A stretch of DNA of 64,000 bases, from positions 124,001 through 188,000 of the forward strand of contig PXQV01000010.1 of the NCBI GenBank assembly GCA_003021175.1, written 5' to 3'. The stretch comes from Halobacteriales archaeon QH_7_66_36 (GTDB lineage: Archaea > Halobacteriota > Halobacteria > Halobacteriales > Haloarculaceae). Under the pieces are notes generated by a model that did not search any database, was not told the origin of the DNA, and saw nothing but the letters and a program-made list of their open reading frames with translations. Shown piece by piece: positions 20,417 to 22,399 of this stretch (positions within the stretch are counted from its first letter, which is position 1; each line of letters begins with the position of its first letter). The position numbers were made by a program, and so were the translations under genes.

Positions 20417-22105
20417 TCAGACCGCCTCGGGGCCGGTCTTGCCCGTCCGGATCTGGTGGGCACCCTCGACGGGGAGGACGAACACCTTGCCGTCACCCTT
20501 CTCGCCGGTCTTCGCTCCCTCGGAGATCGCTTCGGCCACGTCCGTGGCGGGGATGTCGGCGACGACGCACTCAACCTTCACCTTCTGGTGGAGGTCGACG
20601 GTGTACTCCTCGCCGCGCCACTGGCCCGTCTTCGCGGGCTGAGTGCCACGGCCCGACACGTCCGTCACCGTGATGGAGGGGGCACCGACCTCGGCGAGCT
20701 TCTCCTTCACGCCGGGGAGCTTGTCCGGGCGGATGAACGCCATCACGAGCTTGATGTTCCCGTCGTTCGGCCGGCCGCCGTCCGAGCGGAGCGACCGACC
20801 GCGGTCGCTCCAGCCACCGTCGGCGACGGCGTCCGGGCTGCCGAACTCGGGGTAGGTGTCGACGCCGTGTTCGGAGATGTCGAGTCCCTCGATCTCGTGT
20901 TCGCGGGAGACGCGGATCTGCCCGGCGGCCTTCAGCGCGCCGAAGACGGCGGCCGTCGCGAGCACGGTCCAGCCGCCGATGACGACGACGCCCGCCACCT
21001 GTGCGACGGGGTCGACACTCACGCTCGGGACCGTCAGTCCCGGGACTGCGACGAGTAGCGCGCCGAGCACGCCCGCGCTCCCGTGGACCGGGAAGACGGC
21101 ACACACGTCGTCGATGTTGAGCCGCTTCTCGACGAACTCGAAGACGACCGGCAGCTGTGCGCCGGCGAGCCCGCCGATGAGCAGCGCGGCGGGCCACGTG
21201 ATGATGTTCGTGTTCGAGGTGATTCCGACGAGTCCCGCAAGCATCCCGTTCGCGACGTACAGTGTGTCGACCTTGCCGGTCTTGTACCACGCGAGCGCGC
21301 CGGCCCCCATCGCGCCGGCGGCCATCCCGAGCGTGGTCGTCAGCGCGACGCGACCGACGACGGCGAACGAGGCTAGTTCCGCGGCTCCATCCGCGAGCGG
21401 TGCCGCGGCGGTGCCGACGTTGAAGCCGTACCAGCCGAAGGCGAGGATGAGCGTCCCGAGCACCGCGAACGTGATCGAGTGGCCGGGGATGACGTTCACG
21501 CTCCCGTTGCCATCGAAGCGGTCGATGCGCGGGCCGACGATGTACGCCGCGGTCAGGCCGGCGATGCCACCCATCCCGTGGACGATCATGCCGCCCGCGA
21601 AGTCGGCGAAGCCGAGCGTGGAGAGGAAGCCGCCCGCCCACGTGAAGCCGACGACGACCGGATAGATGACGCCCGCGAGCGTGATGGTGTAAGTCACGTA
21701 GGCGCGCAGTTTCATGCGCCCCGCGACGGCCCCGGAGACGATTGTGGCGGCGGTCATCGCGAACACCGCGCCGAACAGCCACGTCACCCAGCCGCCGCCG
21801 TTGGCGACGCTCGCGTTCCCGGCGTCGAAGACGGCGAACAGCTCGTAGCCGCCACCGCCCGTGAGCCCGCCGACGACCGCCGAGACGGTCGCGCCGACGA
21901 GGAAGAAGACGGTGACACCGACGCTCCACGTCAGCATGTTCTTCGTCAACTGGTTGGCGACGTTCTTCGAGCGCACCTGCCCGGCCTCTAACATTGCGAA
22001 GCCGGCGTGCATGAAGAAGATGAGGAACGTCGCGGTCAACACCCACACGTAGTTCACCGCGCTCGTCACTGCGGCCGGATCGACCTGTAGCGGTAGCCCC
22101 GTCAT
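20417..22105 (-). CDS. amt: Ammonium transporter Amt fused to a C-terminal PII (GlnK) domain
   Basis: 562 residues. Residues about 15-415 are an Amt/Mep channel with about 11 membrane helices, including the pore histidines in [14 protein letters not shown] and [14 protein letters not shown]. After a linker (about 416-449), residues 450-562 form a full PII domain: [19 protein letters not shown]-loop [18 protein letters not shown] with the Tyr equivalent to PII Y51 at about 501, then [18 protein letters not shown] (ATP/2-oxoglutarate site). PII proteins normally block Amt in trans; here sensor and channel are one chain. The frame is continuous. Confidence 0.93.
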
Positions 22106-22399
22106 ATTTCCCCCGCGTATTCTGGATTTTTGTCCAGCTTTACTCTCGATTCTACCGTGTTCTGACTCCCAAGCACGTCTGAGCGTCTCGATTTTCTATC
22201 GTATAAGCGTTCGCTTGAATTCTATAAATTTCTTCGTGGAATCGGCGGCGCGCGTCCAAAATTGGGTAGTTTATTACGTGTATAAGGCGTTTGTTCGGTC
22301 GAAAAGCGGACGCTCGGCCAGTCGGTTTCTGACACGTGTAAGCCCGTTGTCGACCGAGCGTCCGGGCGGCGAGCGGGTGCGCGCGACAGATATTGCCGC
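22106..22399. promoter_or_regulatory. Gene-free AT-rich control region upstream of amt
   Basis: About 290 bases between amt and hemB, much richer in A/T than the surroundings. On the minus strand CTTATACGATAG (about 22198-22209) and TTTATAGAATTC (about 22219-22230) are TATA-like and sit 95-125 bases before amt, leaving a 5' leader. TTTATTACGTGTATAAGG around 22271-22288 could serve either strand. A GGACGCTCGGCC/CGAGCGTCC inverted repeat is seen at about 22308-22362. No coding frame is convincing. Confidence 0.4.

Follow-up and report, generated by a model that had tools for sequence, protein, structure and literature searches.

Ammonium channel and PII regulator encoded as one polypeptide in Halobacteriales

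The window, a stretch of 64,000 nucleotides from contig PXQV01000010.1 of Halobacteriales archaeon QH_7_66_36, carries on its reverse strand, as do all features located below, a gene (20417-22105) in which an ammonium channel (Amt) and a PII protein share a single reading frame. The frame starts with ATG and comprises 562 codons plus the stop, with no internal stop codon. The Amt channel domain (residues 1-418; 20852-22105) gave a full-length match to PF00909 (Ammonium_transp) in hmmscan, covering positions 1-399 of the 399 of the profile at residues 20-418 (E 1.9e-93; 313.8 bits against a cut-off of 23.2). It runs into the cytosolic C-terminal region of Amt (residues 398-421; 20843-20914), which could be aligned to that of AmtB, and is followed by an acidic, Gly-rich linker of about 30 residues (422-450; 20756-20842) that contains DGG twice and ends in PNDG. 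The remainder is a GlnK-type PII domain (residues 451-562; 20420-20755), matched by PF00543 (P-II) at residues 452-556 over profile positions 2-102 of 102 (E 1.9e-23; 83.2 bits, cut-off 25). Its closest solved relative is PDB 4ozj (E 6.4e-54), to which it aligns without gaps; residue n of PII is residue 450+n of the fusion protein. The sequence-only reading had proposed a full PII domain at about residues 450-562 joined in frame to Amt, and one PII subunit for each channel subunit. Both proposals are borne out by the PF00543 match and by the presence of the two domains in one frame. Repeats near the gene and tRNAs revealed nothing relevant.

Both parts retain their signature residues. The channel residues F115, F228, W156, D168, H176 and H341 are kept; they correspond to the Phe gate, the selectivity-filter Trp, the Asp of the D160 position and the twin histidines. 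The two pore histidines, His176 (21578-21580) and His341 (21083-21085), are invariant in all groups tabulated, and the C-terminal region of Amt shows several invariant columns among 26 fusions. In the PII part, the T-loop (residues 487-505; 20591-20647) is of standard length and includes Arg497 (equivalent to Arg47), Tyr501 (Tyr51) and, at its base, Gln489 (Gln39); Lys508 (Lys58) and a B-loop of the form TGxxGDGK are also present. Among 51 haloarchaeal fusions Gly35, Gly37, Gln39, Arg47, Lys58, Thr83, Gly87-Asp88-Gly89-Lys90 and Arg103 are identical or nearly so. The residues for MgATP and 2-oxoglutarate (Gln39, Lys58, the B-loop and Arg103) and Arg47 are found in 50 or 51 of them, Arg47 itself in all 51. 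Most of these residues also occur in six independent fusions from Bacillota, Arg47 again without exception (6/6). Judged by these residues, the fusion is predicted to transport ammonium, to form a PII trimer and to bind ATP, ADP and 2-oxoglutarate. At position 101, however, Gln takes the place of Arg in all 51 haloarchaeal fusions, as it does in 47 of 50 free haloarchaeal PIIs; the nucleotide contacts therefore differ from those of E. coli PII. No clear difference was seen between the T-loops of fused and free PII.

The emphasis that had been placed on the T-loop Tyr at position 51 stands only in part. The residue is present as Tyr501, as the gap-free alignment shows, but it seems to matter less than had been supposed: Tyr is found in 50/50 free haloarchaeal PIIs, whereas the haloarchaeal fusions have 45 Tyr and 6 Phe, and the six Bacillota fusions have Val or Ile throughout and never Tyr. 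Moreover, PF08335, the profile of GlnD-type uridylyltransferases, had no match in the genome of the window, although GlnD controls did give matches. Uridylylation by GlnD seems unlikely here; another enzyme might act on Tyr501.

An AlphaFold2 model of one chain, computed from 27 aligned fusions (24 from haloarchaea, 3 from Clostridia), had a mean pLDDT of 78.5. The membrane helices of Amt were confident (mostly 85-98) and the C-terminal part was modelled with the PII fold in blocks mostly between 60 and 88, with low values in the T-loop, as expected of a mobile loop. The stretch 414-447, which includes most of the linker, had a pLDDT below 50 and is predicted to be disordered. The Foldseek matches of the model were Amt structures, including AmtB from the AmtB-GlnK complex; the closest solved relatives of the Amt part were 6eu6, 8qj3 and 8qpf, followed by Af-Amt1 and AmtB.

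Could the joined frame be an artefact, two genes united by a frameshift or an assembly error? Free amt and glnK genes overlap by 4 or 8 nt, mostly in different frames, and a single indel could join them. However, a full-length search in the genomes around that of the window gave a match in 51 of 59, and frames read in these genomes contained Amt and PII uninterrupted and identical in plan in 27 of the 59, including the window's own. The same fused frame was found in at least 142 of the 293 genomes of the order, counted once per genome and distributed over nine family codes. This figure rests on the stop counts of the search tool, with part of the rows checked frame by frame; among the 150 matches listed in this order-wide protein search, 142 were uninterrupted, seven had one in-frame stop and one was ended by a contig edge. 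Named isolate genomes show it as well, among them Halorubrum aquaticum, Natrinema altunense, Natronomonas gomsonensis, Haladaptatus halobius, Halonotius pteroides and Haloarcula pellucida, while Haloferax gibbonsii, Haloarcula vallismortis and Halomicrobium katesii have separate amt and PII genes. Furthermore, linker sequence stands in the fusions where free GlnK has its Met-Ser start, and RefSeq carries single Amt-PII proteins from Bacillota. Comparison of the window's gene with five fused relatives (NG86) gave dN/dS values of 0.19-0.34 for the Amt part and 0.09-0.25 for the PII part, against 0.48-0.78 for the linker, indicating that the two domains are under similar purifying selection while the linker drifts. 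Because relatives share the same uninterrupted frame and both domains are under selection, the frameshift or read error that would have undone the sequence-only reading is excluded, and we regard an artefact as hardly conceivable. In a sample of the phylum, an uninterrupted full-length match was present in 27 of 196 genomes, all 27 of them from the window's own order; beyond this order none of the 120 genomes having a match contained an uninterrupted fusion.

In the genome of the window the fusion gene is the only match to PF00543 and likewise the only match to PF00909. A separate glnK or amt, whose existence had been raised as a point to check, was thus not found in the assembly (18 contigs, 96.7% complete, which leaves a small chance of a further copy). 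PII is widespread in the order (PF00543 matches in 279 of 293 genomes), and the fusion is the sole PF00543 match in at least 122 of the 142 genomes mentioned above. Similarly, 19 of the 27 fused genomes around that of the window had no other PII match, unlike the remaining eight. The gene neighbourhood suggests how this came about. Three congeners show the gene order hemB, amtB, glnK, fusion gene, pyrE, whereas the window has hemB, fusion, pyrE; the free amtB-glnK pair, located in the congeners between hemB and the region upstream of the fusion, is missing. The 294-nt gap upstream of the window's fusion gene (22106-22399) resembles in its 3' part (positions 84-292 of the query) the sequence directly before the fused gene in one congener (E 5e-9). 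Because of this resemblance, it is most likely that the fusion has its own promoter and that the separate amtB-glnK pair was lost.

The junctions of free and fused genes show that the step between the two states may be small. Two kinds of overlap occur in free pairs, one of 8 nt (GATGACTGA type) and one of 4 nt (ATGA type). An acidic tail with DGG motifs is already present at the end of free Amts, and several free GlnKs start with MS...PNDGG; the fused linker reads as a DGG tail of the Amt kind that passes into the GlnK PNDGG, minus the GlnK start codon. From these sequences, one small indel together with loss of the start codon can suffice for joining, and one stop codon for splitting. In seven genomes of one genus (G275, G308, G138, G305, G280, G237 and G200) one TAA or TGA interrupts what is otherwise a continuous frame from Amt to PII, as though one codon had divided a fused gene. 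Linker length ranged from 17 to 63 residues in 49 distinct haloarchaeal fusions, of which 48 had at least one DGG and 43 at least two; the net charge was negative in all 49 (1-10, median 4). The linkers of the Bacillota fusions are longer (42-74 residues) and unrelated.

Exposed and disordered linkers, as in the model, raise the question whether free PII is still produced, by an internal start or by cleavage, and acts in the usual way. A C-terminal fragment of AmtB1 has indeed been observed in Haloferax, according to the available text of PMC3831643. On the other hand, the start codon used by free GlnK is missing and the window's linker contains no in-frame ATG, GTG or TTG, a property shared by the linkers of 32 of 55 distinct fusions. 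The first in-frame start-type codons, GTG and ATG, are at residues 454-455, within the first PII strand, and a search with four Shine-Dalgarno-like motifs gave no match for an internal start. An internal start was therefore rejected for the window's gene, and we consider the release of free PII by either route very unlikely.

Phylogenetic analysis placed the fusions in several parts of the Amt tree. In a tree of 119 rows, 58 of them fused, the Bacillota fusions formed a clade of their own (support 97) far from those of haloarchaea. The haloarchaeal Amts fell into a clade A with 52 fused and 27 free rows and a clade B whose 21 sampled rows were all free; nevertheless, clade-B Amt is joined to PII by long DGG linkers in two genomes of one genus (L163 and L164, in G059 and G080). 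A further tree was confined to clade A (80 rows: 49 fused and 31 free, the latter including five clade-B outgroup rows; the near-identical named twins L079, L080, L103 and L107 were left out). It required at least 13 changes between the joined and the split state, seven of which were forced by well supported branches; joining, splitting and gene transfer are counted together in these numbers, and neither the root nor the direction of change was inferred. One row, L100, had a very long branch. A single clade of all fused rows was rejected (AU test, p 5.7e-5), and together with the forced state changes this rules out a single origin of the fusion. Because the Bacillota clade stands apart and fusions occur in both clade A and clade B, the sequences indicate at least three independent origins: in clade A, in one genus of clade B, and in Bacillota (Enterococcus, Ruminococcus). 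Within clade A joining or splitting appears to have been repeated, possibly with transfer between lineages. These several origins show that tethering was favoured by selection more than once.

Domain databases list the architecture Ammonium_transp plus P-II, and Tremblay and Hallenbeck 2009 are reportedly the source for Amt modules with other domains. A literature search that covered few subscription papers did not turn up any description of a natural Amt-PII fusion. Enterococcus raffinosus WP_222227351.1, Ruminococcus albus WP_013483901.1 and Monoglobus WP_320691151.1 have the Pfam domain order of the window's fusion, and all three RefSeq records are annotated merely as ammonium transporter. 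The Bacillota proteins share Arg47 and the B-loop with the haloarchaeal fusions but differ in Amt clade, in linkers and by Val or Ile at position 51. Another close counterpart is the AmtB-GlnK pair of E. coli, Archaeoglobus and Haloferax, which resembles the fusion in domains, channel residues, T-loop Arg and ligand-loop residues. The pair consists of two proteins, whereas the fusion is one polypeptide with a flexible linker, in a genome with no separate match to either domain. GlnK/GlnB-type PIIs are separate soluble proteins; here PII was matched nowhere but in the C-terminal part of an Amt. The combination of Amt modules with other domains has been noticed earlier, as the available text of PMC5764959 mentions. 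Both domains and their partnership are thus textbook knowledge and Amts with other C-terminal domains are known; what stands out is the breadth of the fusion and the apparent loss of free PII.

Three further frames encountered in the searches deserve mention. L064 (448-1045, forward strand, in G023), just upstream of the fused amt-PII gene of that genome, is a 199-codon frame with a likely transmembrane helix, judged by eye, a DGG linker and PII; in this one genome PII might be anchored to the membrane in a second way. L066 (G031:C50; 624 codons) encodes a clade-B Amt whose C-terminus is much extended; by eye the extension resembles PAS, and the protein is perhaps another Amt receptor fusion. 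L119 from Halanaerobacter jeridensis (995 codons) is an Amt frame double the usual length in which PII gave no match.

Ks-Amt5, as described in the available text of PMC5764959, also combines an Amt with a C-terminal signalling domain, and it raises the possibility of an ammonium receptor role for the fusion: instead of transporting ammonium, the Amt part would bind it and pass a signal on to PII, which would take the place of the Ks-Amt5 kinase. The nearest solved structures are indeed those of Ks-Amt5 (6eu6) and Sd-Amt1 (8qj3 and 8qpf, titled Receptor). The intramembrane ammonium ligands of Ks-Amt5 are Q24, E31, N47, D50, T51, T109 and T112, according to the same text. Three of these seven are identical in the fusion (Glu31, Asn47 and Thr109, as E40, N56 and T121) and one is conservatively replaced (Thr112 by Ser124), but three are changed: Gln24 to His33, Asp50 to Thr59 and Thr51 to Trp60. 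Of the pore-blocking residues F27, Y30 and F34 the first alone is kept (F36, L39 and Q43 in the fusion). The output also differs, a histidine kinase in Ks-Amt5 and PII here. The changed ligands and the two changed blocking residues weaken the analogy, the same His/Thr pair is present in free clade-A Amts, and no Amt besides the fusion was matched in its assembly. A receptor role is accordingly improbable in our judgement. The situation differs in other groups. All 21 tabulated clade-B Amts (e.g. L060 and L062) have the Gln/Glu/Asn/Asp set of Ks-Amt5, the Asp of which is missing in all 79 clade-A Amts; among the Bacillota fusions the Gln is found in five of six, and Glu, Asn and Asp are kept too. 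Going by these residues, the clade A and clade B paralogues may differ in sensing and transport.

We consider it rather likely that the tethered PII acts as a reversible plug of its own channel under ligand control. The Amt subunits would trimerise and the three tethered PII domains would form one PII trimer beneath the same channel. At low 2-oxoglutarate or high ADP, that is when nitrogen is plentiful or energy low, the T-loops would face the cytosolic ends of the pores, each of which would be plugged by the Arg497 of one subunit. Binding of MgATP and 2-oxoglutarate through Gln489, Lys508 and the B-loop would change the shape of the T-loop, and the PII trimer would lift off yet stay on its flexible tether, opening the channel without a diffusing regulator. 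The trimer in cis, the plugging and the release by 2-oxoglutarate are modelled on free systems. For Archaeoglobus, the available text of PMC3198391 reports that ADP promotes an Amt-binding state of the T-loop, and MgATP with 2-oxoglutarate the non-binding state; in Haloferax, GlnK associates with AmtB upon ammonium shock (available text of PMC3831643). The single frame, the intact channel and PII residues, the kept C-terminal region of Amt and the long disordered linker argue for plugging, as does the convergent appearance of the fusion in both haloarchaeal clades and in Bacillota. Variation at position 51 among the fusions, the Gln at position 101 and the fact that the closest solved Amts, Ks-Amt5 and Sd-Amt1, are receptors argue against it; the model, being that of a monomer, is silent on docking.

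Two elements of the sequence-only reading are not supported as worded. It had suggested that the fusion replaces association and dissociation by a conformational gate, for which the length range, the dN/dS and the low pLDDT of the linker offer no support. Because the tether is long and flexible, reversible docking would persist, now within one molecule. It had also suggested that the fusion fixes the stoichiometry. The free AmtB-GlnK complex is already 3:3, so the tether leaves the stoichiometry unchanged; what it fixes is proximity. A simple chain estimate gives an effective PII concentration at its own channel of about 0.5-5 mM for a span of 3-4 nm.

Plugging might, however, be secondary, and PII might be parked at the channel mouth in order to recruit glutamine synthetase to the incoming ammonium. 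The genome of the window has one glutamine synthetase gene and no free PII match, the fusion gene of Monoglobus lies directly after glutamine synthetase III, and GlnK of Haloferax activates glutamine synthetase in vitro, as stated in the available text of PMC3831643. Against this, the glutamine synthetase gene is on a different contig (C15), and the T-loops of fused and free PII show no clear difference, as noted above. Recruitment as the main function seems to us unlikely.

PII is usually a soluble hub which leaves the membrane to reach its targets. We tentatively raise the possibility that in many haloarchaea it has instead become a permanent channel subunit, with sensing, gating and glutamine synthetase control at one membrane site. 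If this is true, glutamine synthetase would have to come to the channel rather than PII to the enzyme, and the textbook soluble messenger would be a membrane-bound one. The fused protein offers a ready-made 1:1 complex for structural work on channel gating. With PII confined to the channel in so many haloarchaeal genomes, the need for free PII in signalling becomes testable, and the interconversion of the joined and the split state is a series of natural experiments on this very question.
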